Source: Elusimicrobiota bacterium
GTDB lineage: Bacteria > CAYTYR01 > UBA6262 > DAOVJB01
Assembly (NCBI GenBank): GCA_030673425.1
Contig: DAOVJB010000017.1
Coordinates: forward strand, 1 to 13,337
Reading direction: 5' to 3'
DNA: 13,337 bases
Under the pieces are notes generated by a model. That model worked only from the letters and a program-made list of their open reading frames with translations, did no database searches and was not told the DNA's origin. Of this stretch, positions 1-12,558 are shown piece by piece. Both the position numbers and the translations under genes were made by a program. Positions within the stretch are counted from its first letter, which is position 1. Every line of letters begins with the position of its first letter.

Positions 1-317
1 AATGGGCGTTACCCGGGGGATTTGTTGAATCTGGAGAATCTCCCGAAACTGCCTGCTTGAGAGAGTTAAAAGAAGAAACAGGCCTAAAGGGTAAAGTTAA
101 AGGATTAATAGGCGTTTATATTCAGAAAAGCAGGCATTATGGTTCACTTCTTGTTATCGGGTATGAAGTTAGCGTTTCTAAATATAATTTATCATTAAAC
201 AGCGAACTGAGAGATGCGAGATTTTTCAGCAGAAAAGATTTGCCTGTTATACCATTTTTATCCCACAGAAAAATAATAGAAACGGTTTATGGAAAAGACG
301 TAAAATACGATGACTAA
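1..317 (+). CDS. Nudix hydrolase, 5'-truncated by the window edge
   Basis: Nudix enzymes hydrolyse nucleoside diphosphates linked to another group, using a divalent metal held by the Nudix helix. The reading frame is open from base 3 and carries the complete Nudix box (G-x5-E-x7-R-E-x2-E-E-x-G-L), encoded at about 18-86: the start reads PGGFVESGESPETACLRELK, followed by EETGL. Only the N-terminal strands before the box are missing. The downstream part contains an ARFF segment and the motif HRKIIE, as in ADP-ribose or NADH pyrophosphatase-like Nudix proteins. The TTG at 57 lies inside the Nudix helix and cannot be the real start. The stop TAA at 315-317 overlaps the next gene by 8 bases, so the two are probably translated together. 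The fold is certain from the motif; the substrate cannot be told. Confidence 0.9.
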   Translation, partial: WALPGGFVESGESPETACLRELKEETGLKGKVKGLIGVYIQKSRHYGSLLVIGYEVSVSKYNLSLNSELRDARFFSRKDLPVIPFLSHRKIIETVYGKDVKYDD

Positions 318-1257
318 TTATGATCTACTTGCATTTGGGCCGGTTCCATCAAGGCGTTTGGGACATAGTTTAGGAATAAATAATATTCCTCCAAAAGTTT
401 GTAGTTATTCCTGTGCCTACTGTCAAGTTGGTAGAACTTTAAATATGCAAACTAAAAGAGAGGAGTTTTATAAACCAGAAGAGATATTAAAGAGTATCGA
501 AAGAAAAGTCAAGGACGCAAAAGAAATAGGAGAAGAGATAGATTATTTAACTTTGGTACCAGACGGCGAACCTACTTTGGACATTAACCTCGCCAAAGAA
601 ATAAAGTTGCTTAAACCATTAGGAATCAAAATCGCAGTTATTTCAAACGCGTCTCTTATATGGCAGAAGGATGTTCAAGATGACCTCTGCAAAGCTGACT
701 GGGTTTCCTTAAAGATTGATGCTGTTAGCGAAGATATATGGCGCAGGGTTAACAGGCCCCATAAATCTTTACAACTCGATAAGATTTTACAGGGTATAGC
801 AGAATTTTCGCATACTTTTAATGGCAAGATAAACACAGAAACCATGCTTATTCAGAATATTAATGATAATACAGAAGAAATAGAAAGAATCGCTGATTTT
901 ATCGGTGGGCTAAAGAACGTAAAAGGTTATATATCTATCCCAACAAGGCCGCCAGCGGAAAAATGGGTCCTTCCGGCTACAGAGCATAGTGTAAATAGAG
1001 CATATCAGATTTTTAAGGAGAAATCTATTGATGCAGAATATCTCATTGGCTATGAAGGGAATGCCTTTGCATTTACAGGAAATATAGAGGAGGATTTATT
1101 GAGTATAACGTCCGTGCATCCAATGAGAGAAGAAGCTGTAGATGAATTTTTAAGTAAGGCTAATGGAGACTGGACTACTGTAGAAAAATTAATAAATGAG
1201 AATAAATTGATAAAGACAGCATACAAAAATAAAAAATTTTATATAAGAAAATTATGA
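310..1257 (+). CDS. Radical SAM protein, COG0731 (TYW1-like) family
   Basis: This 315-aa protein has the radical SAM cluster motif C31-x3-C35-x2-C38 (CSYSCAYC). It follows the conserved N-terminal GPVPSRRLGHSLGINN segment that marks the COG0731 group related to archaeal wybutosine enzyme TYW1. Three Cys bind a [4Fe-4S] cluster that cleaves S-adenosylmethionine to a 5'-deoxyadenosyl radical. A glycine-free PDGEPTLD segment at about residues 84-91 and the KIDA segment near 136-139 fit the radical SAM barrel. The last 60 residues (from about HPMREEAVDEFL) look like a winged-helix tail rather than the TYW1 C-terminal domain. The bacterial members have no assigned reaction known to me. The start ATG overlaps the Nudix gene by 8 bases. 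Family call is secure; substrate unknown. Confidence 0.88.
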   Translation: MTNYDLLAFGPVPSRRLGHSLGINNIPPKVCSYSCAYCQVGRTLNMQTKREEFYKPEEILKSIERKVKDAKEIGEEIDYLTLVPDGEPTLDINLAKEIKLLKPLGIKIAVISNASLIWQKDVQDDLCKADWVSLKIDAVSEDIWRRVNRPHKSLQLDKILQGIAEFSHTFNGKINTETMLIQNINDNTEEIERIADFIGGLKNVKGYISIPTRPPAEKWVLPATEHSVNRAYQIFKEKSIDAEYLIGYEGNAFAFTGNIEEDLLSITSVHPMREEAVDEFLSKANGDWTTVEKLINENKLIKTAYKNKKFYIRKL

Positions 1258-1278
1258 ATTTAATTAAAGAGATTTAAA

Positions 1279-1713
1279 GTGACTAAAGAACAAAAAGGTA
1301 TCATAAATTCTTTCTATAAAACATTCGGAGCATTCAAGGAATTATTTCCGATGTTACTGGGTGTTATTTTGCTTTTAGGGCTTTTTCGAACCTTTATTTC
1401 AAAAAAGATGATTTCTTCTTTATTTACAGGGGAGTTATTGCGAGATACAGTAATCGGTTCGGTAATTGGCAGTGTTGCAGCAGGTAATCCAATCACCAGC
1501 TATATAATAGGGGGGGAGCTTTTAAGAGAGAGTGTGAGTTTATTAGCAGTGACAGCTTTTATCGTGGCCTGGGTTACAGTCGGTGTGATTCAGCTCCCTA
1601 TGGAAATAGCTGCGTTTGGCAAGCGGTTCGCCTTTGTTAGGAATATATTGAGTTTTGTATTATCCATTTTGGTGGCTATGGCTACTGTTACTACATTAAT
1701 GGTGCTTAAATGA
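1279..1713 (+). CDS. Split permease, N-terminal half (COG0701/DUF318-like)
   Basis: This 144-aa integral membrane protein has about four hydrophobic segments (near residues 20-38, 55-78, 84-106 and 120-143). The sequence GNPITSYIIGGELL matches the internal repeat motif of COG0701 permeases, the group that includes the arsenic permease ArsP. Full-length members are usually 300 residues or more and contain this kind of unit twice. Here the second unit is encoded by the next gene, whose ATG overlaps this stop as ATGA (1710-1713). The start is GTG at 1279 with a purine-rich AAGAGA just upstream; no better in-frame start is seen. The two products probably form a heterodimer. Substrate is not evident: metalloid or organic efflux is only a family-based guess. 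Confidence 0.72.
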   Translation: MTKEQKGIINSFYKTFGAFKELFPMLLGVILLLGLFRTFISKKMISSLFTGELLRDTVIGSVIGSVAAGNPITSYIIGGELLRESVSLLAVTAFIVAWVTVGVIQLPMEIAAFGKRFAFVRNILSFVLSILVAMATVTTLMVLK

Positions 1714-2267
1714 AAACAGACACGAACATAAAGGATAAAAAGGAGAAGAAATATTATAGTTTATATTTTTTAATATTTGTTCTCTTTTTGTATGTTATTC
1801 TGTTTGTTTTTAATCCAGAGAGAACACAAAGTTCTCTTGAAGCAAGTGGGAGATTATTTATTCGTATAGTTCCCATAATGGTAGTCGTTTTTCTGTTTAT
1901 GGGAATTATGAATTATCTGGTAAAACCAAGAGGAATGTTAAAGTATATTGGCAAAGGGTCTGGGATTAGAGGATGGTTTTTGGCTATATCTTTAGGAATA
2001 CTCAGTCACGGACCTATTTATGTTTGGTATCCTTTACTAAAAGATCTTCGGGCTCAAGGGATGAAAGACAGCTTGATTGCAGCATTTCTATATAACAGGG
2101 CTATAAAAATCCCTCTTTTGCCGTTGATGATTTATTATTTTGAATTAACATTTGTATTTGTGGTTTTGGTTTATATGATTATTGCTTCAATTGTGGAAGG
2201 GAAAATTATTGATGCGATTGAAGAGCGCTTTCGAAAAATAGGTTCTAAAAAGAGAGTATTCTATTAA
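1710..2267 (+). CDS. Split permease, C-terminal half (COG0701/DUF318-like)
   Basis: This 185-aa membrane protein has a charged, Lys-rich N-terminus (about residues 1-15) and then five or so hydrophobic segments (about 16-36, 48-68, 84-104, 120-141 and 143-165). The central segment LGILSHGPIYVWYPLLKDLR, followed by a Gly and a conserved AxxYNRAIKIPLLP run, is the second-repeat signature of COG0701 permeases. It is translationally coupled to the upstream half through the ATGA overlap. The equal division into two short genes argues for a stable split arrangement: both frames are intact and each has its own start. It is not a recent frameshift, since the second protein has its own hydrophilic leader. 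The transported compound is unknown. Confidence 0.72.
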   Translation: MKTDTNIKDKKEKKYYSLYFLIFVLFLYVILFVFNPERTQSSLEASGRLFIRIVPIMVVVFLFMGIMNYLVKPRGMLKYIGKGSGIRGWFLAISLGILSHGPIYVWYPLLKDLRAQGMKDSLIAAFLYNRAIKIPLLPLMIYYFELTFVFVVLVYMIIASIVEGKIIDAIEERFRKIGSKKRVFY

Positions 2268-2334
2268 AGTCGGGATAAGATTTAAGATAGAGATTTGAAA
2301 GATATGATTTCAAAGAGCTTTCCTTAAAAAAGAC

Positions 2335-2363
2335 TTGACAGGATTTTAGGATAGAGGTATACT
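2335..2363 (+). promoter_or_regulatory. Sigma70-type promoter of the fur operon
   Basis: A perfect -35 box TTGACA (2335-2340) and a near-perfect -10 box TATACT (2358-2363) are separated by exactly 17 bases. A second TATAAT (2364-2369) follows directly but lacks a matching -35. Transcription would start at about 2370, giving a leader of about 55 bases before the Fur-family gene. This is one of the best promoters in the window and probably drives the whole run of genes to 7551. Confidence 0.8.
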
Positions 2364-2372
2364 TATAATGGG

Positions 2373-2391
2373 AATGGGAATCATTTTCATT
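2373..2391 (+). promoter_or_regulatory. Fur-box-like operator
   Basis: The 19-base sequence AATGGGAATCATTTTCATT is an interrupted palindrome: 14 of its 18 non-central positions are symmetric, and the others would be G/T-type mismatches. The inner 15 bases (2375-2389) match 11 of 14 defined positions of the classical 7-1-7 Fur box TGATAATnATTATCA. It sits a few bases downstream of the predicted transcription start, where a bound repressor would block promoter clearance. Its location immediately before a Fur-family gene suggests autoregulation. Whether the ligand is iron, zinc, manganese or peroxide is not shown. Confidence 0.65.
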
Positions 2392-2425
2392 AAGGGTTTT
2401 AATAAGAAGAAAGAAAGGTAATGTT

Positions 2426-2893
2426 ATGCATGGTCCTCCATGGTGGCACGGGAGATTCAGGGGCTGCGGTTACAGGTTAACCATTCCAAGGGATGCCATA
2501 TTAAATGTTCTAAGCAAAGCTTCAAAACATCTGAGTGCAGAGGAAATTTATTTTGCTGTTCATAAGATATATCCTGCTATCGGTTTAACCACGGTCTACA
2601 GGACCGTGGACCTACTTGCAGGTATGGGGCTGGTTCATAAGTTTGATTTTGGTGACGGGAGAAGCAGGTATGAACTATCCAAGGGACCTGGCAGCATACA
2701 TCATCATCACCTGGTCTGTAGAGGCTGCGGCAGGGTGATTGATTATACGGATTTTATAGATGAGGAAGCAGAATTATTCAAACAGACAGAAGCTGCTTTA
2801 TCTAAAAAGTATAATTTTAAGATAAAGAGTCATAGAGTACAGTTTTACGGTTTATGCGAGAAGTGTAAACCAAAAGAAGAAAATAAAGAATAA
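2426..2893 (+). CDS. Fur-family metal-responsive transcriptional regulator
   Basis: This 155-aa protein has the Fur architecture: a winged-helix DNA-binding domain (about residues 16-88, with LTIPRDAILNVL and the recognition region GLTTVYRTVDLL at 53-64) and a C-terminal dimerisation domain. The HHHH metal-site motif is at 92-95. Two CxxC pairs (C98/C101 and C144/C147) match the structural zinc site found in many Fur, PerR and Zur proteins. Unusual is the N-terminal extension MHGPPWWHGRFRG, rich in His, Trp, Gly and Arg, before the normal start of the fold. The start ATG is set by AAAGG (2414-2418) seven bases upstream; the nearby ATG at 2421 is out of frame. It likely controls its own operon through the palindrome at 2373-2391. 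Which member of the Fur superfamily it is cannot be decided from motifs alone. Confidence 0.92.
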   Translation: MHGPPWWHGRFRGCGYRLTIPRDAILNVLSKASKHLSAEEIYFAVHKIYPAIGLTTVYRTVDLLAGMGLVHKFDFGDGRSRYELSKGPGSIHHHHLVCRGCGRVIDYTDFIDEEAELFKQTEAALSKKYNFKIKSHRVQFYGLCEKCKPKEENKE

Positions 2894-2924
2894 CTAAAAA
2901 TATATAGGAAAGGAGGTGTTTACT

Positions 2925-3311
2925 ATGCCAGGTGGAGATAGAACTGGTCCGATGGGTTTAGGGCCAATGACAGGCAGGGCTGCTGGGTATTGTGCTGGTT
3001 ATCCTGTTCCCGGTTATATGAACCCGGCGGTTGGAGGAAGAGGCCGTGGATTCGGCAGAGGCTGGGGACGCGGTAGAGGCAGAGGTTTTGGCAGAGGCTG
3101 GGGTTTTGGCAGAGGATTTGGCTGGCAGGGTTATGGATATCCTTATGATATGGATCCATATGCTGGATATCCATATGCTCCTGAAGTCGCTCCTCAGCAG
3201 GAAACTGAGATGCTGAAGGAACAGGCAAAAGCTATCAAGGAAGAACTTGGGGCCATAAACCAGCGTATTAAGGAACTTGAAGCTAGTGCTAAGACTGAAA
3301 AGAAAAAGTAA
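2925..3311 (+). CDS. Gly/Arg-rich DUF5320-like protein
   Basis: This 128-aa protein begins MPGGDRTGPMGLGPMTGRAA, the conserved N-terminus of the DUF5320 family. It continues with a low-complexity stretch of GRG, GFGRGWG and GRGRGFG repeats (about residues 38-66). A Tyr/Pro-rich segment (about 70-90) follows, and then a charged Glu/Lys/Gln helix that should form a coiled coil (about 91-122), ending in a Lys tail. The only Cys is at position 23. ATG at 2925 is chosen because AGGAGGT (2911-2917) lies seven bases upstream; the in-frame GTG at 2916 sits inside that ribosome-binding site. Members are commonly found beside NifX/NifB-like and Fe-S ATPase genes, as here, but have no known function. 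The basic Gly-rich part could bind nucleic acid or be flexible scaffold; this is inference. Confidence 0.8.
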   Translation: MPGGDRTGPMGLGPMTGRAAGYCAGYPVPGYMNPAVGGRGRGFGRGWGRGRGRGFGRGWGFGRGFGWQGYGYPYDMDPYAGYPYAPEVAPQQETEMLKEQAKAIKEELGAINQRIKELEASAKTEKKK

Positions 3312-3325
3312 CCTGAGGGAATCTC

Positions 3326-3373
3326 GTGTAACGGTCAGGAACAAAGGGAGCACAGGTATCCTGGCCGTTGCAC
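3326..3373 (+). repeat. Long intercistronic stem-loop
   Basis: Bases 3326-3340 (GTGTAACGGTCAGGA) pair with 3359-3373 (TCCTGGCCGTTGCAC) over 15 base pairs. In RNA two of these are G-U wobbles and the rest are Watson-Crick. The loop is 18 bases (3341-3358). No run of T follows, so it is not a standard intrinsic terminator. It lies between the DUF5320-like gene and the NifX-like gene and ends 10 bases before the latter's ribosome-binding site (3384-3390). A role in mRNA processing, stability or differential expression is inferred. Confidence 0.7.
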
Positions 3374-3396
3374 AATATAATCTGAGGAGGTAGCTT

Positions 3397-4143
3397 TTGA
3401 AAATAGCAATTTCAACAGACGGAAATTCAGTATCAGCCCATTTCGGCAGATGTCCGTTGTTTACTATTGTAGAAATTGAAGATAATAAAATAATAAAAAA
3501 AGAGACTATTGATAATCCAGGTCATCATCCGGCTTTTTTACCGCAGTTCCTTGGTGATAAGGGTGTTAATGCTATTATTGCGGGAGGAGCAGGACAAAGA
3601 GCCCTTGATTTATTTAATGAAAAAGGAATCGAAGTAATAGTCGGAATTTCCGGCACTATAAATGAGGTGATAGATAAAATAGTAGCAGGAACCCTTGAGG
3701 GTGGCGAGACTCTTTGTAATCCTGGAGCAGGCAGGGGATATGGATTGGAAAAAACTGAATGTGAGGATAAAAATATGAAGATATGCGTAACAAGTGAGGG
3801 TGATAATTTAGATGCAGGTGTTGATCCAAGGTTCGGAAGATGTAAGTATTTTCTGTTTGTAGATACAGACACACTTTCTTTTGAAGCAATTGAAAACAAA
3901 AACATAAATGGTACTGGTGGTGTCGGGATTCAGTCAGCTCAGCTTCTATCTGAAAAAGAAATTAAAGTAGTGCTTACAGGTAATGTCGGGCCGAATGCTT
4001 TTCAGACACTTAAGGCAGCGGGTATAGATGTAATAACAGGTGTATCAGGAACAGTGAAAGAGGCTGTAGAAAAACACAAAAAAGGCGAATTGAAAACAAC
4101 GGATAATCCAAACGTAGATTCAAAGTTCGGAACACAAATTTAA
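3397..4143 (+). CDS. Tandem NifX/NifB-type iron-molybdenum cofactor-binding protein (two fused domains)
   Basis: This 248-aa protein is two Nitro_FeMo-Co domains (PF02579, COG1433) in a row. Domain 1 (about residues 1-105) has the N-terminal MKIAIST strand, HFGRC at 15-19 and the HHPAFLPQFL segment with IIAGGAGQRAL. Domain 2 (about 127-235) restarts with MKICVTS and has RFGRC (145-149), GTGGVGIQSAQLL and GNVGPNAFQTL. The linker (106-126) is Gly-rich and contains two Cys. Related proteins bind or carry Fe-S or FeMo cofactor precursors, but most COG1433 members are single-domain and not linked to nitrogenase. TTG at 3397 is taken as start because GAGGAGG (3384-3390) is six bases upstream and the family begins MKIA. 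An internal ATG (3775), with GAGG eight bases before it, could give domain 2 alone. Confidence 0.88.
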   Translation: MKIAISTDGNSVSAHFGRCPLFTIVEIEDNKIIKKETIDNPGHHPAFLPQFLGDKGVNAIIAGGAGQRALDLFNEKGIEVIVGISGTINEVIDKIVAGTLEGGETLCNPGAGRGYGLEKTECEDKNMKICVTSEGDNLDAGVDPRFGRCKYFLFVDTDTLSFEAIENKNINGTGGVGIQSAQLLSEKEIKVVLTGNVGPNAFQTLKAAGIDVITGVSGTVKEAVEKHKKGELKTTDNPNVDSKFGTQI

Positions 4144-4154
4144 GGAGGTACAAA

Positions 4155-4364
4155 ATGGTATTCGGTATAGGAAGAGGCGGTGGAAGAGGGGGTGGAAGAG
4201 GCGCAGGCGGTGGAAGAGGAAGAATGGGTGGCAACAGGCCAGGCTCAGGACCTGGTGGATATTGTGTTTGTCCTAATTGTGGTAGGAGAGTTTCCCACCA
4301 AATAGGAACTCCCTGTTATAATATAAGCTGTCCTGATTGCGGCGCAAAAATGGGTAAAGAATAA
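4155..4364 (+). CDS. Small Gly/Arg-rich zinc-ribbon protein
   Basis: This 69-aa protein has a Gly/Arg repeat N-terminus (residues 6-30, GRGGG and GGGRGR type) and a C-terminal Cys domain. The Cys are C37, C39, C42, C54, C59 and C62, arranged as CVCPNCG and SCPDCG with a conserved-looking SHQIGTPC between them. The two CPxCG knuckles (C39/C42 and C59/C62) are those of a zinc ribbon, and C37 and C54 could add a further metal ligand. AAGGAGG (4142-4148) precedes the ATG by six bases. The same type of small protein is a regular companion of COG1433 and MinD/ferredoxin ATPase genes in anaerobes. Function is unknown; metal binding is well supported by the motif, while a scaffold or chaperone role is a guess. 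Confidence 0.8.
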   Translation: MVFGIGRGGGRGGGRGAGGGRGRMGGNRPGSGPGGYCVCPNCGRRVSHQIGTPCYNISCPDCGAKMGKE

Positions 4365-4369
4365 GACTT

Positions 4370-5209
4370 ATGATCATTTCTATTGCAAGCGGTAAAGGCG
4401 GTACCGGTAAAACTACGATTGCTGTCAATCTGGCTTTTACTATTCCCAATTGTCAACTGCTCGACTGTGATGTGGAAGAGCCTAATGACCATATATTCAT
4501 AAAACCGGATATAATAGATAAGATTCCTGTTTTTATACCTGTGCCTGAGGTTGATTTATCAAAATGTGATTTCTGCGGTAAGTGCGCACAGGTTTGTGCG
4601 TATAACGCTATTGCTGCGTTAAAAAAGAAAATTCTGGTTTTTCCTGAATTATGTCATGGGTGCGGAGCATGCAGTTATCTTTGTCCAAAAGAAGCAATAA
4701 AAGAGGTAAATAAAGAAATAGGCTCTGTAGAGATAGGTGAAAAAGACGGCCTGCAGTTCGTTCACGGCAGGCTTAATATTTCAGAAGCAATGTCTCCGCC
4801 TGTTATAAAGGCGGTTAAAAGATATATAAATCCCACAAGAACCGTCATAATAGATGCCCCGCCCGGAACATCCTGTCCTGTTATTGAAGCTGTAAAAGAA
4901 AGTGATTTCTGCATTCTTGTTACAGAACCCACTCCTTTTGGTTTATATGACCTTATGCTTGCTGTTGAGGTTTTAAGGAAAATAAACATTCCTTTTGGTG
5001 TTGTTATTAACCGCTCTGATATTGGGAATGATAAAACAGATATATATTGCAAGGAAGAAAATATACCTGTACTTATGAAGATTCCGTTTAAGAAAGAGAT
5101 AGCTAAGATATATTCTAAAGGTGAAATCATTATTGAAGCATTGCCTGAGTATAAGAAAGATTTTAATGGGTTATTTGATAAAATTAAGAGAATGCGGAAG
5201 CAAGGATGA
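4370..5209 (+). CDS. MinD-superfamily P-loop ATPase with inserted 2[4Fe-4S] ferredoxin domain (copy 1)
   Basis: This 279-aa cytoplasmic ATPase belongs to the COG1149 group. The deviant Walker A SGKGGTGKTT is at residues 7-16, with both signature lysines (K9, K14). The switch DCDVEEPN is at 32-39. A bacterial ferredoxin domain is inserted next: C66/C69/C72/C76 and C95/C98/C101/C105 would bind two [4Fe-4S] clusters. Walker B VIIDAPPGTSCPV spans 159-171. Related SIMIBI ATPases (Mrp/Nbp35, NifH, ArsA, MinD) couple ATP hydrolysis to cluster transfer, reduction or partner movement, so a role in electron transfer to, or assembly of, a metallocluster is likely. It starts six bases after the zinc-ribbon gene and overlaps copy 2 by ATGA (5206-5209), implying equal expression. 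Heterodimer formation with copy 2 is an inference. Confidence 0.92.
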   Translation: MIISIASGKGGTGKTTIAVNLAFTIPNCQLLDCDVEEPNDHIFIKPDIIDKIPVFIPVPEVDLSKCDFCGKCAQVCAYNAIAALKKKILVFPELCHGCGACSYLCPKEAIKEVNKEIGSVEIGEKDGLQFVHGRLNISEAMSPPVIKAVKRYINPTRTVIIDAPPGTSCPVIEAVKESDFCILVTEPTPFGLYDLMLAVEVLRKINIPFGVVINRSDIGNDKTDIYCKEENIPVLMKIPFKKEIAKIYSKGEIIIEALPEYKKDFNGLFDKIKRMRKQG

Positions 5210-6063
5210 AACAGATAGTCGTAATAAGCGGTAAAGGCGGTACGGGTAAGACAGTAATTACAGGAGCCTTTGCTGCTCTGGCTGAGAAGAAAGTTATGGC
5301 AGACTGTGATGTTGATGCTGCTGACCTCCATTTGTTGCTTAATCCCAAGATAAAGCAAACCCATGTATTCAAAAGCGGTTTTACAGCTTACATAAATAAA
5401 GACCTTTGTACGCAATGCGGAAAGTGTATAAGCCTTTGTCGTTTTAATGCTATAAGTGACGATTATATTATAGATTCTGTTTCCTGCGAAGGATGTGCTT
5501 TTTGCAGTTTCATCTGTCCAGAAAAAGCAATAGATATGAAAGAGAATACTTCAGGAGAGTGGTTCGTATCAGATACACGGTTTGGGCCTCTTGTGCATGC
5601 AAAATTAGGCATCGCAGAAGAGAATTCAGGAAAACTTGTTGCAACAGTAAGACAAAAAGCACACGAGATGGCAAAAGAGAATAATTATGACTGGGTAATT
5701 ATAGACGGTTCTCCGGGTATAGGATGTCCTGTTATTGCGTCTTTGTCAGGGACCGATTGTGCAGTCGTTGTAACAGAACCTACACTCTCAGGCATACATG
5801 ATGCAGATAGAGTCATAAAAGTAGTACAACATTTCAAAGTTCCTGTTAAACTTGTTGTAAATAAATATGATCTTAATGAAGAGATGACAGAAAAAATAGA
5901 AAACTACTGCAGAAATAAGAGTATTCCTGTTATAGGTAAAATAAGTTTTGATGAGTCCATAGTAAAAGCAATGGTTGAGGCAAAAACAATAATAGAATAT
6001 AATGATTCGAAAGCTAAGGAAGATATTATTAATATTTGGAATAATTTACAAAAAGGGATATAA
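5206..6063 (+). CDS. MinD-superfamily P-loop ATPase with inserted 2[4Fe-4S] ferredoxin domain (copy 2)
   Basis: This 285-aa paralogue of the preceding gene has the same layout. Walker A SGKGGTGKTV is at residues 8-17 and the switch ADCDVDAADLH at 32-42. Ferredoxin Cys are C68/C71/C74/C78 and C94/C97/C100/C104, and the Walker B region is VIIDGSPGIGCPV. It is not a recent duplicate. The switch (DVDAADLH instead of DVEEPN) and Walker B (DGSPG instead of DAPPG) differ in the way that separates the two standing members of this gene pair in many anaerobes. The ATG overlaps the stop of copy 1. Together the pair could bind four [4Fe-4S] clusters per heterodimer, if one forms. Biochemical role is unproven; Fe-S electron transfer or cluster delivery fits both motifs and neighbours. 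Confidence 0.92.
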   Translation: MKQIVVISGKGGTGKTVITGAFAALAEKKVMADCDVDAADLHLLLNPKIKQTHVFKSGFTAYINKDLCTQCGKCISLCRFNAISDDYIIDSVSCEGCAFCSFICPEKAIDMKENTSGEWFVSDTRFGPLVHAKLGIAEENSGKLVATVRQKAHEMAKENNYDWVIIDGSPGIGCPVIASLSGTDCAVVVTEPTLSGIHDADRVIKVVQHFKVPVKLVVNKYDLNEEMTEKIENYCRNKSIPVIGKISFDESIVKAMVEAKTIIEYNDSKAKEDIINIWNNLQKGI

Positions 6064-6069
6064 TAACCT

Positions 6070-6699
6070 ATGAAATATATTCCGGAATTAACAGAGCAGG
6101 AAATAGAAGAGAATAACAAACACTTCAAAGAAAGAATCACCCTTTATAAACATAAAGGGCTTGATTTTTTTAAGGCGCGAAGTTTTATTCTCCAAAAAGC
6201 AAAGCCTCTTGAAGGAAATATTTTAGAAATAGGAACAGGTACTGGCCATACAACATTATGCCTGGCAAAAGCAGGGCATAGGTTTGCTTCGGTGGATCCG
6301 GATAAAGAGACCCTGAAGATAGCAGCATTAAATGTTGCTTATGAAGGGATGCTCTCTAATGTTGATTTTTACGTGATGGACGGAATGTCCCTTGCTTTTG
6401 GTGATAACAGCTTTAATAATATAATTATTGTATGTCTATTCCATCATATAGATGACATAAGCAGGATACTTAAGGAAACAGACAGGGTATTGGTTCCAGG
6501 CGGCAAGGTCGTTATTTCTGATTTTGACAGATACGGTATGGAAATTGTAAATACTGTTCACGAAGAAGAAGGTCGTAAACACGAAGATTCAGGGGTTACG
6601 GGAAAAGATATTAGAGATTATCTTGATGCTTTAGAGTATAATACCAAAAGTTATGATTATAAAGGGTATTGGATCGTAATAGGTGAAAAGGCAAAGTAA
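6070..6699 (+). CDS. Class I SAM-dependent methyltransferase
   Basis: This 209-aa protein has a Rossmann-type methyltransferase core. Motif I ILEIGTGTGH is at residues 51-60, the acidic end of strand 2 is SVDPD (74-78), and a DGMSLAFGDNSF segment (about 111-122) matches the adenine-binding and post-II region of the Methyltransf_11 group. HHIDDISRILKETDRVL and a PGGKVVISDF strand follow. The N-terminal helix region (1-48) is specific to this protein. It starts six bases after the second ATPase and ends overlapping the next small gene by 17 bases, so it belongs to the Fur-headed operon. The methyl acceptor is unknown. Co-occurrence with the metallocluster genes could mean methylation of a small molecule or metal-related substrate, but no residue proves it. 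Confidence 0.85.
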   Translation: MKYIPELTEQEIEENNKHFKERITLYKHKGLDFFKARSFILQKAKPLEGNILEIGTGTGHTTLCLAKAGHRFASVDPDKETLKIAALNVAYEGMLSNVDFYVMDGMSLAFGDNSFNNIIIVCLFHHIDDISRILKETDRVLVPGGKVVISDFDRYGMEIVNTVHEEEGRKHEDSGVTGKDIRDYLDALEYNTKSYDYKGYWIVIGEKAK

Positions 6700-6892
6700 A
6701 AATATTTGCAAGTGGTTTCATTGCTGTCCTCTTAAGAGGTTCTATGAAGAGGGTAGGCTTGATAAGAAGTGGGTCGAGGATTACTGCTGGAGCAATAATC
6801 CTGATTGCGTGAGGAAGAAGATGGAAGAAAAAGGTCAGTATCATCCTGATAATATGATGCCTGACGGAACAATTGATGAGGATATGGTATGA
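6683..6892 (+). CDS. Small conserved Cys-containing protein, function unknown
   Basis: This 69-aa protein resembles a family of short proteins seen beside COG1433 and Fe-S ATPase genes. Its features are CKWFHCCPLKRFYEEG (residues 9-24), a WVEDYC segment (30-35), CVRKKMEEKGQYHP (42-55) and an acidic C-terminus with MMPDGTIDED. Cys are at 9, 14, 15, 35 and 42, and with H13 or H54 they could bind an Fe-S cluster or zinc. GTG at 6683 lies inside the end of the methyltransferase gene and shares 17 bases with it; its stop overlaps the next gene as ATGA (6889-6892). Such tight packing on both sides supports it as a true gene. I recognise the pattern but know no function. An alternative start a few codons later is possible. 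Confidence 0.7.
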   Translation: MKRQSKNICKWFHCCPLKRFYEEGRLDKKWVEDYCWSNNPDCVRKKMEEKGQYHPDNMMPDGTIDEDMV

Positions 6893-7551
6893 TTACTGAA
6901 AATGTGAAAGAACTGTTAAGCGAACTACCGCAAGGAGTGGAGCTTGTTGGGGCAGCAAAAACCAGGACCCCGGATGAGATAAGAGAAGCAGTAGAAGCGG
7001 GTATAAAAATAATAGGGGAGAACTATGTGCAGGAGGCTGAAGCGGCGTTTAACCTGATAGGCAATAAAGTCAGGTGGCATTTTATAGGCCACCTGCAGAA
7101 GAATAAGGTCACCAAGGCAGTAAAGATATTTGATATGATAGAAACAGTTGATTCTTTGAAGATAGCCCAGGAGATTAATAAAAGGTGTACTCAGGAGAAC
7201 AAGGTAATGGGAGTTCTGATTGAGATAAACAGCGGCACCGAAGAGCAGAAATTCGGTATATTCCCGGATAAAGCAGAGGATCTGGTTAAACAACTGGCAG
7301 GATTAAAGAATATAAAGGTGATGGGGCTTATGACCATGGCGCCGTATTTCGAGAATAGTGAGAAGTGCCGGCCTTATTTTAAAAAAACAAGGGAAATCTT
7401 TAAGCAAATTAAGGCAGCTAATATAGAAAATATAGAAATGAAGTATCTTTCCATGGGGATGACCGATTCATATAAGGTGGCTATCAGCGAAGGAGCGAAC
7501 ATGGTGAGAATAGGCACCAGGATATTCGGTCAAAGGGAATATAAAAAATAG
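6889..7551 (+). CDS. yggS: YggS/PLPBP-family pyridoxal 5'-phosphate-binding protein
   Basis: This 220-aa protein is of the COG0325 family: a single-domain PLP barrel that binds pyridoxal phosphate and keeps vitamin B6 and amino-acid pools in balance, without a proven catalytic reaction. The Schiff-base lysine is K24 in VGAAKT. Other family motifs are IGENYVQE, WHFIGHLQKNK, the IETVDS strand, EINSG, GLMTMAP and the phosphate-binding end SMGMTDSYKVAISEGANMVRIGTRIFG. The length is close to the usual 220-235. It overlaps the preceding small gene by ATGA. In many bacteria the gene lies with cell-division or proC genes, so its place at the end of a metallocluster operon is unusual; it may simply be a housekeeping passenger. 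Confidence 0.95.
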   Translation: MITENVKELLSELPQGVELVGAAKTRTPDEIREAVEAGIKIIGENYVQEAEAAFNLIGNKVRWHFIGHLQKNKVTKAVKIFDMIETVDSLKIAQEINKRCTQENKVMGVLIEINSGTEEQKFGIFPDKAEDLVKQLAGLKNIKVMGLMTMAPYFENSEKCRPYFKKTREIFKQIKAANIENIEMKYLSMGMTDSYKVAISEGANMVRIGTRIFGQREYKK

Positions 7552-7563
7552 CCAAAAAATCGG

Positions 7564-7613
7564 TTGACATAAGCATTAAATAAAGATAAAATAATATCTC
7601 TGGTTGCTATAAT
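7564..7613 (+). promoter_or_regulatory. Promoter region before the ferredoxin gene
   Basis: Two readings are possible. TTGACA (7564-7569) with TAAAAT (7587-7592) has a 17-base spacing. Alternatively TGCTATAAT (7605-7613) is a perfect extended -10 element that needs no strong -35. An inverted repeat AGATA-n6-TATCT (7584-7599) covers the first -10 and could bind a regulator. The gap between yggS and the ferredoxin (7552-7637) is one of the few gaps in this gene run, so a new transcription start here is likely. Confidence 0.6.
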
Positions 7614-7637
7614 GTTTAAAGAGAAGGAGGAAAATAG

Positions 7638-7808
7638 ATGGCAGCTGTTGTAGATAAAGAGAAATGCACAGGATGCGAAGCATGCGTGAGTGTATGTCCT
7701 GTAGAAGCAATAACCATAGTAGATGGTAAGGCAGTCATAAGTGATGCATGCGTAGATTGCGGTGTTTGTATAGAACAATGTCTTGTAAAGGCTATCTCAT
7801 TACCATAA
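7638..7808 (+). CDS. 2[4Fe-4S] ferredoxin, 56 aa
   Basis: This short gene encodes 56 residues beginning MAAVVDKEKCTGCEACVSVC. It has two CxxCxxCxxxC(P) motifs: C10/C13/C16/C20 followed by Pro, and C38/C41/C44/C48. This is the classical clostridial-type ferredoxin of 55-60 aa with two [4Fe-4S] clusters, a soluble low-potential electron carrier. The second motif ends CLV instead of CPV, a small departure that may shift the potential of that cluster. AAGGAGG (7624-7630) lies seven bases before the ATG. It is the first gene after a promoter and is followed at 16 bases by a Cys-rich protein gene. It may serve as electron donor for the nearby Fe-S ATPases or the radical SAM enzyme; this is inference. 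Confidence 0.93.
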   Translation: MAAVVDKEKCTGCEACVSVCPVEAITIVDGKAVISDACVDCGVCIEQCLVKAISLP

Positions 7809-7823
7809 GAAGGGATTTTCTTT

Positions 7824-8030
7824 ATGGCAGAATGTAAAGTCGCCAGGAACAAGGCAAAATGTAACTGCACCTATGAACCATGCAGCAGAAAAGGCGTATG
7901 CTGCGAGTGTATACAATATCACTGGCGCATAGGTGAACTTCCTGCTTGTTTTTTTCCTGATGATGTAGAAAGAACATATGACCGTTCTATTGAAAAGTTT
8001 ATTGAGACCTACCAGAAAAGGAGAGGATAA
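7824..8030 (+). CDS. Cys-rich DUF6485-like protein
   Basis: This 68-aa protein has eight Cys (C4, C13, C15, C20, C26, C27, C29, C42) within the first 42 residues. The pattern [18 protein letters not shown], followed by a [14 protein letters not shown] segment and an [12 protein letters not shown] tail, is that of the DUF6485 family. The Cys cluster must bind metal (zinc or Fe-S) or form a redox centre; the C-terminal third is a plain helix. AGAAGGG (7808-7814) precedes the ATG. It lies between the ferredoxin and a membrane protein gene with short gaps, so it is in the same transcript. Function is unknown in the family as far as I know. Frequent presence in anaerobes next to similar genes supports a redox or metal role. 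Confidence 0.82.
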
Positions 8031-8041
8031 CAGAAGGTAAG

Positions 8042-8698
8042 ATGTCTTCCTGCGCAGAACAAACCCATCAGCATAATCAATCAGTCTCATCACGGATATT
8101 GCATGAGCTGAAAAATCATGCCCCTTTTACTATATTCGGAGCAATTACAGGTATTATCCTGATGATACTGTTTAAGAATATACCTTCAAAGTTTGCATAT
8201 AATATATTTTACATTCTCCATCCATTTCATGTTGTTTTGAGCGCTCTTGTTACCGCCTCCATGTACGAACTCCATAAATGCGGGCGCATAAGAGGCAAAT
8301 GTAATATATGGATACTGCTTCTGATAGGCTATGTCGGTTCGGTGGGTATTGCCACAATAAGTGATTCATTAATACCATATCTTGCAGAAGCCATGCTTGG
8401 TATGCCCAACAGGCAGATACATATAGGCTTTATAGAGAAATGGTGGCTTGTCAACCCGCTTGCAGTAGCGGGAGTCGCCCTGGCATATTTCAGGCCGACA
8501 ACCAAATTCCCTCACGGAGGCCATGTTTTGTTAAGCACATGGGCATCCCTTTTTCATATTCTAATGGCTATGGTCGGTACCTTGAACTGGTTGATGTATA
8601 TTGCTGTGTTTATATTTCTATTCTTTGCTGTATGGATTCCCTGCTGTATAAGCGATATAGTATTTCCACTTTTATTTGTAAAACAAAATCATACATAA
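8042..8698 (+). CDS. Conserved six-helix membrane protein with His/Cys-bearing segments
   Basis: This 218-aa inner-membrane protein has a hydrophilic His-containing N-terminus (residues 1-27). Six hydrophobic segments follow at about 28-45, 54-75, 89-115, 132-150, 160-178 and 183-212. Polar residues rare in membranes stand in or beside them: H60 and H63 in LHPFHVVLSA, D108 in ATISDSLIPY, H127, H158 and H161, and the pair C201/C202 with D205 in IPCCISDIVFP. These motifs look conserved in a family I have seen near NifX and ferredoxin genes, but I cannot give it a name. The polar residues suggest metal or proton passage, or cofactor binding. AGAAGG (8032-8037) precedes the ATG, and a strong AAGGAGG for the next gene follows directly after the stop. 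Confidence 0.75.
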   Translation: MSSCAEQTHQHNQSVSSRILHELKNHAPFTIFGAITGIILMILFKNIPSKFAYNIFYILHPFHVVLSALVTASMYELHKCGRIRGKCNIWILLLIGYVGSVGIATISDSLIPYLAEAMLGMPNRQIHIGFIEKWWLVNPLAVAGVALAYFRPTTKFPHGGHVLLSTWASLFHILMAMVGTLNWLMYIAVFIFLFFAVWIPCCISDIVFPLLFVKQNHT

Positions 8699-8713
8699 CA
8701 AGGAGGTTTCCTG

Positions 8714-9043
8714 ATGGAAACAGATGTAAATGATACCAATTTTAAGGAAGAAGTGTTAGATTCGAAGTTACCGGTGCTGGTAGATTTTTGGGCCCCATGG
8801 TGCGGACCATGCTATATAGTCGCACCCAGTGTTGCAGAAATAGCTAAAGATTATGAAGGAAAACTCAAGGTATGTAAGGTAAATGTTGATGAAGCGCAGG
8901 AAACCGCTGTCCGGTACGGGATTATGAGTATACCGACACTGGCTATTTTCAAAAATGGCAATATAGTGGACAAAATCATAGGGGCGGTTCCAAAATCTAT
9001 GCTTGAAGATAAACTAACACCCCATGTTCCTACTGGAGCTTAG
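8714..9043 (+). CDS. trxA: Thioredoxin
   Basis: This 109-aa protein is of normal thioredoxin length and has the active site W29-C30-G31-P32-C33 in FWAPWCGPC. The buried aspartate is in VDFW, the cis-proline P74 in SIPTL, and the Gly-rich end near IGAVPK. It reduces disulfides in cytoplasmic proteins using electrons from a thioredoxin reductase, which is not in this window. The residues after the active site (YIVAP instead of the common KMIAP) are slightly unusual. AAGGAGG (8700-8706) precedes the ATG by seven bases. It lies between a membrane protein and an OsmC-type peroxidase-like protein, which fits a thiol-redox module. Confidence 0.95.
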
Positions 9044-9051
9044 AGACTAAT

Positions 9052-9513
9052 ATGCCAAATCTAAATAAACACAATAAAAAATTTACCTATAAAGTGCACC
9101 TCAGGTGGACGGAACAGAGAAAAGGCATAATTGCTTCTCCTGACAAGCCTGAGATTGAGCTCTCCACCCCTCCTGAGTTTATGGGACATCCCGGAGTATG
9201 GACACCGGAGGATTTCTTTGTTGCTGCTGTAATAGGCTGTCTTATGACAACATTCCTTTACCAGGCAGAAAAACATAAGCTTAAATTTTCCAGATTGGAT
9301 ATACCCGGGCAGGGTATACTGGAAAAAGTAGAAAATCAATATATTATATCTAAAATAGAACTTATTCCTCATCTTGTGATTTCATCAACGCTTGATATTG
9401 ACAATGCAAAAAAGATATTTGAGCTTGCTGAAAGATACTGCGTGATAACCAACTCAATAAAATCCAAAATTTATCTAACACCGGATATAGAAGTAAAAAA
9501 TAAAGGAGAGTGA
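9052..9513 (+). CDS. OsmC/Ohr-family protein
   Basis: This 153-aa protein has the OsmC fold signature: an N-terminal beta region, a GHPGVWTPEDFFVAAVIGCL helix with C63, and a second helix with C130 in AERYCVITNSI. In OsmC and Ohr two Cys at these positions form the peroxidatic and resolving pair that reduces organic hydroperoxides. The catalytic Arg normally near the N-terminus may be R18 or R23, but this is not certain, so peroxidase activity is probable and not proved. The position directly after thioredoxin (8 bases) is sensible, because thiol reductants recycle such enzymes. The last four bases of the gene overlap a false GTG start of the next gene. No strong ribosome-binding site is seen before its ATG, which suggests coupling to thioredoxin translation. 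Confidence 0.87.
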   Translation: MPNLNKHNKKFTYKVHLRWTEQRKGIIASPDKPEIELSTPPEFMGHPGVWTPEDFFVAAVIGCLMTTFLYQAEKHKLKFSRLDIPGQGILEKVENQYIISKIELIPHLVISSTLDIDNAKKIFELAERYCVITNSIKSKIYLTPDIEVKNKGE

Positions 9514-9518
9514 TTTAT

Positions 9519-9863
9519 ATGCCAATAATGGAAATAACGGTTATTCCATTAGGTACTCAAACAGTATCACTGAGCGAATATGTTGCTGATGCGGTAGTAG
9601 TATTAAAAAAAGAGAAAGACATAATGTACCACCTTACAGCAATGGGAACCATAATACAGTCGGACTCGATCAGCAAGCTGTTTAAGGTGGCGGAGAAGAT
9701 GCATAAAGCGGTTCTTAAAAAGAATAAAAGAGTCGTAACAGCAATAAAGATAGATGACAGGAAAGACAAAAGAATAACAGTCAAAGGGAAACTTGATGCG
9801 GTAAAAGAACACCTGAACAACAAATTGATAAAAAAGAGAGTATTAAAAAATTACGGAAACTAA
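9519..9863 (+). CDS. Thiamine-binding-like protein (COG0011/DUF77, MTH1187 family)
   Basis: This 114-aa protein has the compact alpha/beta form of the MTH1187/YkoF-like family: an N-terminal strand MEITVIPLGT, then SLSEYVADAVVVL, the YHLTAMGTIIQSD strand and FKVAEKMHKAVL helix, and a RVVTAIKIDDRKD strand. Members bind thiamine or related compounds and form tetramers; most have no proven role. ATG at 9519 is preferred to the GTG at 9510 because AAGGAG (9503-9508) leaves ten bases to the ATG but only one to the GTG. An ATG at 9528 is a second choice. The basic C-terminus (KKRVLKNYGN) is a little longer than usual. It is one base from the J-domain gene, so the two share a transcript. Confidence 0.85.
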   Translation: MPIMEITVIPLGTQTVSLSEYVADAVVVLKKEKDIMYHLTAMGTIIQSDSISKLFKVAEKMHKAVLKKNKRVVTAIKIDDRKDKRITVKGKLDAVKEHLNNKLIKKRVLKNYGN

Positions 9864-9864
9864 T

Positions 9865-10167
9865 ATGGCTAATTTTAAGGAAATTGATAATGCACGCAAA
9901 ATCCTGGGATTGACCCAAACAGCAACATTACAAGAAATAAAAGAAACATACAGGAAACTATCATTAAAATATCATCCTGATAGAACTAAAGGTAAAAAGA
10001 AAAAAGAATGCGAAGAGATGTTTAAGAAAATAAATGAAGCTAACCGCATAATTACAGCTTACTGTATCGGGTACAAGTATTCTTTTAAGGAAAAAGATGT
10101 TAAAGATAACGTAATAGATCTGGATTTTGAAGAACACATAAAGAGGTTTTATGAAGACTGGCAATAA
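9865..10167 (+). CDS. Small J-domain (DnaJ-like) protein
   Basis: This 100-aa protein is little more than a J-domain: helix I ARKILGL, helix II EIKETYRKLSLKY, the HPD tripeptide at 37-39, then helix III EEMFKKINEANRIIT. The HPD loop stimulates the ATPase of an Hsp70 partner (DnaK), which is not in this window. No Gly/Phe-rich or zinc-finger region follows; the last 30 residues ([20 protein letters not shown]) may bind one specific client. J-domain proteins such as HscB serve Fe-S cluster transfer, so a link with the metallocluster genes is possible but unproved. It begins one base after the previous stop and overlaps the methyltransferase gene by 17 bases. Confidence 0.9.
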   Translation: MANFKEIDNARKILGLTQTATLQEIKETYRKLSLKYHPDRTKGKKKKECEEMFKKINEANRIITAYCIGYKYSFKEKDVKDNVIDLDFEEHIKRFYEDWQ

Positions 10168-10807
10168 AACCCCGATATTTGATAAAGCCAGAGCAGAGAA
10201 ATATGAGAGTTGGTATGAGACAAGAAAAGGCAGGCGTTTTGATAATCTGGAAAAAGAGCTTATGTTCAAGCTTGTTCATCCCAGGTATGATGAAAAACTT
10301 CTTGATGTAGGTTGCGGGACAGGGCATCATCTGAAATGGTTGAAGGTTTTCGGGTTAAGGCTGACAGGGGTTGATATATCAGAAGATATGCTTAATGTCG
10401 CAAGAAAGTCCCTTGATAAAGACATAGAACTTCGTGTTGCTGATGCCCAAGAGCTGCCCTATGAAGATAACAGTTTCGATATTGTTATAATAGTTACGAC
10501 CCTTGAGATGGTAGATGCCCCGGAAGCTGCTATAAAAGAAGCTTTGCGTGTATCAAAAAACAGGGTATTTTTAGGTATCTTAAATAAATATTCCGTGCTT
10601 TCTGTAAAAAGAAAAATAAAGGGAATATTTATTAATGATCCCTTCTGGAAATACCCTAACTTTTTTAGTATCAAGAAAATTATAAGACTGATTGAAAATA
10701 TAAATAATAACCTGCTCATATCATGGAAAAGCCTCTACGGCAGGAATCCGTTTAGTTCCTTTATTGGTATTTTAATTAAAAAGGAGAACAAAAATGACCC
10801 GCAGTGA
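10151..10807 (+). CDS. Class I SAM-dependent methyltransferase (UbiE/COG2226-like)
   Basis: This 218-aa protein has motif [12 protein letters not shown] (residues 50-60), VDIS at 74-77 (end of strand 2), [15 protein letters not shown] at 96-110 (motif II region) and a [19 protein letters not shown] stretch typical of the Methyltransf_11 fold. The N-terminal [20 protein letters not shown] is the usual substrate-side lid of this group, and the C-terminal part from about 140 is basic. It is clearly different from the methyltransferase at 6070. AAGAGG (10141-10146) is placed four bases before the ATG, which lies inside the J-domain gene. It overlaps the RNase PH gene by 14 bases. The substrate is unknown; similar genes recur near COG1433 proteins in anaerobes. 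Confidence 0.87.
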
Positions 10808-11507
10808 CGGAAGAAAACCTGATAAGCCACGTCCGTTAAAAATAACAAGGAACTACCTAAAGGATGCAGAAGGCTCCGTTCTTATAGAGGCAGGGGATAC
10901 GAAGATAATCTGTTCCGCATCAGTTGATGAAAAAGTCCCGCCTTTTCTTAAGGATACAGGTAAGGGCTGGATCACTGCAGAATATTCAATGCTGCCGAGG
11001 TCAACACAGACAAGAATACCAAGAGACAGAAAAAGAATGCCGGGCAGGAGCTATGAGATACAGAGACTGATAGGCAGGGCGTTAAGATCATGTATTGATC
11101 TTAAAAAATTGGGAGAAAGAAGCATAATCATAGACTGCGACGTGATCCAGGCTGACGGAGGCACAAGGACAACAGCTATTAACGGTGCTTTTATAGCCTT
11201 GGCCGATGCACTTATAAAATTAAAAAAAGACAGGATTATAAATAGTTTCCCTATAACAAATTTTGTTGGGGCAATAAGTGTGGGAAAGGTAAAGAATGCA
11301 CTCCTTCTTGACTTAAACTACTCAGAAGACAGCAGGGCTGATGTAGATATGAATGTAGTTATGAACGATGAAGGAGAATTTATTGAAGTGCAGGGTACAA
11401 GCGAAGGGAAGACCTTCACCCGTGATGAGATGGATCAGCTGATGAACCTTGCAGCAAAAGGAATAAAAGAGATAATAAAAATACAGAAGGAGCTATTAGG
11501 AAAATAA
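10794..11507 (+). CDS. rph: Ribonuclease PH
   Basis: This 237-aa enzyme is of normal length for RNase PH, the phosphate-dependent 3'-5' exonuclease that trims tRNA 3' ends. Family motifs are the N-terminal [12 protein letters not shown], the [12 protein letters not shown] loop, [15 protein letters not shown], the phosphate-binding [12 protein letters not shown] (122-133) and the catalytic acidic stretch [13 protein letters not shown] (about 179-191). It is encoded within the same run as the rdgB gene (4 bases apart), an arrangement found in many bacteria. Its start overlaps the methyltransferase by 14 bases. The three tRNA genes follow 660 bases or more downstream; one of them does not encode CCA, so 3' end maturation of that tRNA needs both trimming and CCA addition. 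Confidence 0.97.
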
Positions 11508-11511
11508 AGAT

Positions 11512-12099
11512 ATGCTTGAAATAGTACTTGCTACAAGAAATAAAGATAAAGTAAAAGAGATTAAGAGAATCTTGACTCACTTAAAAGTCAAGATTTTGTC
11601 TATAGGAGACTTCCCGAATATGCCTGGGGTAGAAGAAGACAGGAAGACCTTAAGAGGAAATGCCATTAAAAAGGCAAAAGAGACTGCAAAATATACCAAC
11701 AAAATCTCCTTAGCTGATGATTCAGGCCTCCAAGTATATGCATTAAACAGAAAACCAGGGGTAACCTCAGCACGTTTTGCAGGTAAAGACTGTAATTATA
11801 AAGACAATAATAAGAAATTGTTAAAATTAATGAAAAACAAGAAGAACAGGAAAGCTCTATTTAAATGCGTAATGGCAATTACAGTACCTAAAGGAAAAAC
11901 AAAGACAGTAACAGGAACAATAATAGGCACTATCTCTACTAAATCAAGAGGGAAACACGGCTTCGGGTATGATCCTGTTTTTATTGTCCCTCAATATAAT
12001 AAGACCTTTGCTGAGTTGGGTCTTTCTATAAAGAACAAAATCAGCCACAGGGCAAAGGCTTTACAAAAAATCCGAAAAATCCTCCAGGAGATGACTTAA
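11512..12099 (+). CDS. rdgB: XTP/dITP diphosphatase (HAM1/RdgB family)
   Basis: This 195-aa enzyme hydrolyses non-canonical purine nucleotides (dITP, XTP) to monophosphates and pyrophosphate, keeping them out of DNA and RNA. Motifs: the nucleotide-binding TRNKDKVKEI (8-17), acidic VEED (40-43), the catalytic LADDSGLQVYAL (67-78), PGVTSARFAG (82-91), FGYDPVF (151-157) and SHR (178-180) that contacts the base. The length is normal. ATG follows the RNase PH stop after four bases. The Lys-rich region around residues 98-117 is more basic than usual but within family variation. A new promoter starts three bases after its stop, so this is probably the last gene of the run. Confidence 0.96.
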   Translation: MLEIVLATRNKDKVKEIKRILTHLKVKILSIGDFPNMPGVEEDRKTLRGNAIKKAKETAKYTNKISLADDSGLQVYALNRKPGVTSARFAGKDCNYKDNNKKLLKLMKNKKNRKALFKCVMAITVPKGKTKTVTGTIIGTISTKSRGKHGFGYDPVFIVPQYNKTFAELGLSIKNKISHRAKALQKIRKILQEMT

Positions 12100-12101
12100 T
12101 A

Positions 12102-12130
12102 TTGACATATTACTAATTTAGTGATATTAT
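12102..12130 (+). promoter_or_regulatory. Sigma70-type promoter of the tRNA operon
   Basis: TTGACA (12102-12107) and TATTAT (12125-12130) are separated by 17 bases, close to the ideal promoter. Transcription would start at about 12137, leaving a leader of about 33 bases before tRNA-Pro. No stem-loop terminator for the preceding rdgB transcript is visible, so some read-through into the tRNAs may occur. Confidence 0.75.
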
Positions 12131-12169
12131 TACTACATATTGCCTTTTTTTATATTTAAATAACAACAA

Positions 12170-12247
12170 CGGGGCGTGGCGCAGTTTGGCTAGCGCGCCT
12201 GCTTTGGGAGCAGGAAGTCCCCGGTTCGAATCCGGGCGCCCCGACCA
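12170..12247 (+). tRNA. tRNA-Pro (anticodon UGG)
   Basis: A complete cloverleaf is seen. The acceptor stem is CGGGGCG with CGCCCCG, including the C1-G72 pair typical of bacterial tRNA-Pro. The anticodon arm CCTGC-TTTGGGA-GCAGG has anticodon TGG, and the T arm is CCCGG-TTCGAAT-CCGGG. The discriminator is A and CCA is encoded (12245-12247). It is the first product of the promoter at 12102. UGG reads the CCN proline codons. Confidence 0.96.
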
Positions 12248-12273
12248 GATTTATATAGAGAGAAGGTTTTTGA

Positions 12274-12465: not shown

Positions 12466-12469
12466 TAAT

Positions 12470-12543
12470 GCGCCTGTAGCTCAGTCGGATAGAGCATCTG
12501 CCTTCTAAGCAGAGGGTCGGGGGTTCGAATCCCTCCGGGCGCG
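12470..12543 (+). tRNA. tRNA-Arg (anticodon UCU)
   Basis: The acceptor stem is GCGCCTG with CGGGCGC, with one G-U pair. The anticodon arm TCTGC-CTTCTAA-GCAGA gives anticodon TCT, which reads AGA and AGG. The T arm is GGGGG-TTCGAAT-CCCTC, with one G-U pair, and the discriminator is G. CCA is not encoded: CTT follows at 12544, so CCA must be added after transcription. It starts four bases after the stop of the small membrane protein gene. Confidence 0.95.
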
Positions 12544-12558
12544 CTTTTCAAATAAATC

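Follow-up and report, generated by a model that had tools for sequence, protein, structure and literature searches.

Fur-headed ORP-type operon in an Elusimicrobiota genome: a candidate iron-responsive system for handling metal-sulphide clusters

A stretch of 13,337 nucleotides from an uncultured, anaerobic Elusimicrobiota bacterium (GenBank assembly GCA_030673425.1, contig DAOVJB010000017.1, positions 1 to 13,337, forward strand; hereafter the window, contig C148 in our numbering) carries a run of genes headed by a Fur-family regulator, in which NifX domains and MinD-type ATPases with ferredoxin motifs are combined with small cysteine-rich and Gly/Arg-rich proteins. The question raised by this locus is what such a set of proteins handles, and under which control. 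The preliminary description had proposed a metal-regulated system that builds, stores or delivers a metallocluster other than the nitrogenase cofactor. A metal-regulated, non-nitrogenase cluster system is still the best reading: the locus is probably (about 0.62 by our own estimate) an Orange Protein (ORP)-type operon for the handling of metal-sulphide, most likely iron-sulphur (Fe-S), clusters, autoregulated by a dedicated Fur. The genome (1.32 Mb, 199 contigs) is 88% complete, with 4.7% contamination.

Nine genes lie on the same strand between positions 2426 and 7551, with gaps of at most 85 bp and several overlaps (4 bp between the genes of the two ATPases, MinD1 and MinD2), behind a TTGACA-17-TATACT promoter and a Fur box. 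The window proteins were assigned with Pfam and NCBIfam models, and the features are as follows:

2335..2363, + strand: sigma-70-type promoter, TTGACA(2335)-17-TATACT(2363), 11/12 consensus matches
2374..2390, + strand: Fur box ATGGGAATCATTTTCAT, just 3' of the -10 element (consensus fit, conservation)
2426..2893, + strand: Fur-family regulator of the ORP-linked subclass (PF01475, E 1e-32)
2925..3311, + strand: DUF5320 protein (PF17253, E 1e-28)
3326..3373, + strand: stable RNA hairpin between the DUF5320 and NifX genes (folding of 3312-3396)
3397..4143, + strand: double NifX protein with two Nitro_FeMo-Co (NifX/COG1433) domains (PF02579 twice, E 1e-50)
4155..4364, + strand: Gly/Arg-rich protein with a C-terminal four-Cys zinc ribbon (weak Pfam matches)
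4370..5209, + strand: MinD1, SIMIBI ATPase of the Orp3/Orp4 type with two inserted 4-Cys [4Fe-4S] motifs (Pfam, NCBIfam)
5206..6063, + strand: MinD2, second ferredoxin-inserted MinD ATPase (Pfam, NCBIfam)
6070..6699, + strand: class I methyltransferase (PF08241, E 5e-20)
6683..6892, + strand: small four-Cys protein (Cys conserved in orthologues)
6889..7551, + strand: YggS-family protein binding pyridoxal phosphate (TIGR00044, above cut-off)
7564..7592, + strand: next promoter, TTGACA-17-TAAAAT, 11/12 matches

The tightly spaced run from the Fur gene to the four-Cys gene had already been described, and both spacing and domains agree with that account; its heading left out the YggS gene despite coordinates that ended with it. 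Only two sigma-70-type promoters with 11/12 matches were found within 2250-7900, at 2335 and 7564, and the Fur-controlled unit probably ends where the second of them starts the next unit.

Judged by its protein families, the core of the operon is the known and widespread ORP-complex gene set (Orp3/Orp4 ATPases, Orp8-type NifX and Mrp/NBP35), and so not an unknown system. In Desulfovibrio vulgaris, the complex is made up of Orp3 and Orp4, each with two [4Fe-4S] motifs and an amphipathic C-terminus, together with Orp5, Orp8 (the Orange Protein) and Orp9, which is MrpORP; in vitro, MrpORP passes Fe-S clusters on to Orp3-Orp4-Orp8 (PMC6345978). As in the complexes of D. vulgaris and D. alaskensis (PMC6345978, PMC3897727), two adjoining MinD ATPases with ferredoxin motifs and amphipathic C-termini are encoded in the window. 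The deviant Walker A motif and all eight motif Cys of MinD1 are invariant in 16 orthologues, and the C-terminal segments of MinD1 and MinD2 are strongly amphipathic (rank 3 of 269 and 8 of 275 sequence windows, respectively). An Orp8-type NifX domain is likewise present, here fused behind a second NifX domain: domain 2 has the Orange Protein as its best structure match (2wfb_A, E 5e-21), and domain 1 matches the MrpORP-type Di-Nase domain, below the cut-off of the MrpORP model. The double NifX protein scored E 2e-41 against NF041136 (below cut-off) and 142 bits against the MrpORP model, in its Di-Nase part only. A viral origin of MinD1 was rejected, with no match among phage records.

Conservation of the gene set across genomes, proposed earlier as a check, was examined. 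About 100 bacterial and archaeal loci combine MinD1 and MinD2 with NifX genes, and often with DUF5320, zinc-ribbon and mrp genes (Omnitrophota, Chloroflexota, Desulfobacterota, Clostridia, WOR-3, Planctomycetota, methanogens and Asgard-type archaea), and the two ATPase genes adjoin one another in nearly all of them. The nearest named loci by MinD1 belong mostly to metagenome-assembled genomes of Candidatus Omnitrophota (62-67% identity). The window operon differs from the Desulfovibrio complex in that its two NifX domains are fused, that DUF5320, zinc-ribbon, methyltransferase and YggS genes are added, and that Mrp is encoded in a separate operon and is not fused to the Di-Nase domain. It also differs in its predicted control: the two orp operons of D. 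vulgaris are under sigma-54, DVU2106 and IHF (integration host factor; PMC3897727), a regulatory trait of Desulfovibrio and not of the complex as such, whereas the window operon has a sigma-70-type promoter with a Fur box.

This promoter and its Fur-box-like palindrome had been noticed in the preliminary description, and both were confirmed, by the 11/12 promoter match, by a chance p of about 0.005 for the box (dinucleotide shuffles, 200 bp) and by counterparts in related loci. The box ATGGGAATCATTTTCAT departs from the published delta-proteobacterial consensus WTGAAAATNATTTTCAW (PMC545781) in two positions. Because promoter scans yielded about equal numbers of weak sites in shuffled sequence, only conservation was given weight. 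The window Fur (nearest NCBIfam model: Bacillus Fur, below cut-off) belongs to a subclass, the ORP-linked Fur proteins, which score at least 147 bits against it; the remaining Fur paralogues of these loci stay under 100 bits. An N-terminal WWHG(R/K)FRGCGYR stretch is common to many members. As the phylum sample comprised five genomes only, linkage was measured on one of 386 genomes, 120 of them with MinD1: ORP-linked Fur was present in 27, and 25 of these also carried MinD1 (Fisher p 6e-12, related genomes being counted as independent). Within 7 kb or less of MinD1 lay 17 of the 28 ORP-linked Fur copies, and the six unlinked copies that were examined each adjoin DUF5320, NifX or mrp.

Boxes were scored as 7-1-7 repeats with at least 12/14 matches in the 200 bp upstream of ORP-linked Fur. 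They were found in 26 of 29 loci, where shuffles predict 1.7% per locus, and they fit TGAWAATNATTWTCA, of the Fur-type 7-1-7 arrangement. Boxes with at least 13 matches numbered 0.57 per 10 kb where ORP-linked Fur was present and 0.06 per 10 kb in the remaining ORP loci; those of the first group stood before fur (13), DUF5320 (8) and FeoA (1), and 5 were near no recognised gene start. FeoA and FeoB lie directly 5' of Fur in locus L057; in L207 they separate Fur from DUF5320, and in L200 and L205 they are found close to the module. The window operon shares with the delta-proteobacterial Fur-FeoAB regulons (PMC545781) the Fur-box consensus, a predicted fur autoregulation and, in some of its relatives, adjoining FeoAB genes. 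The identity of the regulator as PerR or Zur is made less probable by the box type and the FeoAB linkage. With boxes in 26/29 loci, FeoAB neighbours and a second box before mrp (below), the metal regulation claimed earlier is now predicted much more firmly. The literature searched contained no report that Fur controls ORP-type genes, which is no proof that none exists, and such genes are not among the Fur regulon members in the passages of PMC545781 consulted; Fur control thus appears to be the new part of a system whose core was already known. Contig C23 (L193, 539-2944) of the same genome holds a Fur-FeoA-FeoB operon with a second, distant Fur at its head; the upstream repeat of this operon, TTGAGAATAAATTGCAA, looks different, which suggests two separate Fur regulons in this small genome.

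The pattern fitted to the operon box had exactly two perfect matches in the 1.32 Mb genome. The second lies on contig C179 (3668-3684), inside a promoter nearly identical to that of the operon, and the gene behind it is mrp/NBP35, which encodes a NUBPL-family ATPase (PF10609, E 1e-96) and is followed by genes for a methyltransferase, a two-cluster ferredoxin and a thioredoxin-glutaredoxin protein. The Mrp/NBP35 P-loop carrier of the ORP complex, absent from the window, is therefore present under an identical Fur box and belongs to the same predicted regulon. This Mrp (276 amino acids) matches CFD1 and Fe-S carrier structures, retains the CxxC motif and has no Di-Nase match. It is a typical NUBPL-family ATPase like the ApbC/Mrp/NBP35-CFD1 carriers, unlike MinD1 and MinD2, which bear inserted ferredoxin motifs and match the NUBPL model weakly. 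C179 is close to the window in GC and tetranucleotide composition, an argument against contamination. Elsewhere in the genome, hits with one mismatch lay within genes or spanned a start codon, and the regulon was accordingly kept at two units. Across the loci compared, an Mrp gene was found within the fetched locus in 15/30 Fur-headed and 40/88 other cases. Contig C99 (L051) carries at its edge (5-3737) another MinD2 gene and another mrp, followed by genes for an MBL-fold (metallo-beta-lactamase) protein, a zinc-ribbon protein rich in Gly and a transporter of the cation-efflux (CDF) type; these probably form a second ORP-type cluster, if they are not contamination.

The two small Gly/Arg-rich proteins are probable physical partners of the NifX domains, by the argument of fusion. 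Single open reading frames (ORFs) with a NifX domain and a DUF5320 match above the Pfam cut-off were found in five loci (L036, L065, L084, L088, L098). The NifX proteins of L057 and L199, which are probably from the same or close organisms, end in a Gly/Arg stretch and a zinc ribbon that are 61-62% identical to the separate protein of the window; L096 is a weaker third case. The zinc-ribbon protein adjoins MinD1 in many loci, and DUF5320 is preceded by its own Fur box in 8 other loci. Within the loci, 22/175 NifX ORFs have a Gly-rich tail of at least 30 residues, some with DUF5320 or zinc-ribbon ends. The window DUF5320 protein has a Gly/Arg/aromatic middle (residues 31-90: 32% Gly, 13% Arg, 23% aromatic) and a coiled-coil-like C-terminus; this make-up resembles the tail of IssA, a lead and not a test.

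The preliminary description had found no nitrogenase genes in the window, and the search was extended to all contigs of the genome. No PF00148 protein (NifD/K/E/N) and no NifB (TIGR01290) was found in the 88%-complete genome, and PF02579 occurred only in the double NifX gene; at this completeness the absence of nif genes is likely, not certain. The operon differs in this respect from nif systems, and a role in nitrogenase maturation was rejected.

On the preferred reading, an autoregulated ORP-type operon, Fur would bind the box 3' of the -10 element when Fe(II) is sufficient and would block both its own operon and the unlinked mrp operon; when iron falls, Fur would leave the box and both units would be expressed. 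With the help of the two Gly/Arg-rich proteins, DUF5320 and the zinc ribbon, the NifX domains would keep hold of an anionic metal-sulphide cluster; MinD1, MinD2 and Mrp/NBP35 would use ATP to load it, reduce it or release it to client Fe-S proteins. The module may work beside the Suf system, so that scarce iron would be assembled, salvaged or rationed; FeoB and a SufB/D protein are encoded elsewhere in the genome. The gene set and its conservation, the conserved ligands, the Fur boxes, the regulon link to mrp, the FeoAB neighbours and the domain fusions are seen directly in the sequences; the identity and binding of the cluster, its ATP-driven transfer, the induction at low iron and the client proteins are what we infer from them. 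Among the roles named earlier (building, storing, delivering), expression at low iron under Fur would suit delivery, or salvage, better than storage.

Several points weigh against this reading. The ORP complex was first linked to cell division and its cellular role is unsettled, and the ORP of D. gigas holds a Mo-Cu cluster, not an Fe-S cluster (PMC6345978 and its references). Other ORP loci are without Fur, so iron control is not universal, and the FeoAB genes of this genome are under a different Fur paralogue. The p values treat relatives as independent genomes; the Fur-bearing loci still span several phyla.

The other explanations that may be entertained are, in order, IssA-like storage, Mo-Cu chemistry and a division role, a nitrogenase role being disfavoured. 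Storage, in which NifX with Gly/Arg/aromatic partners would nucleate an anionic, thioferrate-like Fe-S polymer of the kind that IssA of Pyrococcus furiosus nucleates and that the ATPases would fill or empty, is unlikely. IssA joins a NifX domain to a cationic Gly/aromatic tail proposed to bind anionic thioferrate (PMC5524996), and the association of NifX with Gly/Arg/aromatic low-complexity sequence is common to the IssA/IssX clade and the window, as seen in DUF5320 and in the Gly-rich NifX tails of other loci. The window NifX protein itself, unlike IssA, is without such a tail, its low-complexity sequence being on separate proteins; ATPases are present; and IssA is made at abundant iron and sulphur (PMC5524996), whereas the Fur box predicts expression when iron is scarce. 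A wider proposal, held tentatively and rather doubtful as a whole, is that a dedicated Fur and the ORP-type module together serve iron economy and are widespread among anaerobes. IssA-like parts, split into NifX and the Gly/Arg-rich scaffolds DUF5320 and zinc ribbon, would keep a metal-sulphide polymer or cluster, on which the chain of ferredoxin-motif MinD and Mrp ATPases would draw at low iron. If true, this would be a reserve of Fe-S that ATP can mobilise and that differs from ferritin, Suf and Isc.

Handling of Mo/Cu thiometallates, for buffering or detoxification of Mo and Cu, would follow the Orange Protein of D. gigas and its S2MoS2CuS2MoS2 cluster (PMC6345978 and its references). ORP is the best structural relative of NifX domain 2, but the Fur boxes and FeoAB neighbours indicate iron instead; this explanation is held to be somewhat less likely than storage. 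A role of the MinD-like ATPases in positioning the septum or some polar structure, which was the first proposal for the D. vulgaris complex, is improbable: both C-termini are amphipathic as in Orp3/Orp4 (PMC6345978), but the conserved cluster Cys, the constant NifX partners, Mrp and Fur control suit cluster handling better. A nitrogenase-type or other specific complex-cofactor (FeMo-co-like) pathway with its target elsewhere in the genome is very improbable, given the absence of NifD/K/E/N, NifB and any other PF02579 protein described above; the NifX/NifB-like domains and the weak matches of the ATPases to NifH are what speaks for it.

Among anaerobes, both bacterial and archaeal, the ORP complex and its MinD ATPases with inserted ferredoxin motifs are widespread, and their job is unsettled, with cell division, Mo-Cu chemistry and Fe-S biogenesis all proposed. 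The Fur box, the Fur subclass, the FeoAB neighbours and the shared mrp operator provide an independent link to iron and predict the timing of expression, and DUF5320 and the zinc ribbon are named as likely partners of NifX. The interest lies in making the role of the ORP complex testable in a growable anaerobe, and not in a new kind of system.

Among the remaining features of the operon, the hairpin region (3312-3396) folds with -33.2 kcal/mol (z -4.3); the hairpin has no Rfam match and no T run, and could be a processing or stability element. The four-Cys protein had no Pfam or NCBIfam family match, and its AlphaFold model (pLDDT 75) was too weak for use; orthologues are present in L038, L053 and L054. 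Relatives of the methyltransferase were found in 10/30 Fur-headed loci vs 4/88 other loci, and YggS also adjoins the module in L064, L102, L195, L200 and L208.

The YggS, thioredoxin, OsmC, DnaJ-domain and methyltransferase genes at 6889-10807 of the window recur near the Fur-headed ORP loci L195, L196, L205, L208 and L211, and the associated gene set may therefore be larger. A multi-pass membrane protein with many invariant His and a C-terminal PCC.SDI.FPL motif, without Pfam match, is encoded at 8042-8698; its AlphaFold model (pLDDT 67, from four sequences) was too weak, and no PDB match below E 0.28 was obtained. Its relatives occur in eight ORP-type loci (L034, L053, L081, L105, L195, L199, L200, L203), once directly 5' of the four-Cys protein. 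Upstream of the operon, at 1279-2267, two adjoining ORFs each match one half of the ArsP_1 permease model (below cut-off), and seem to be one predicted permease split in two genes.

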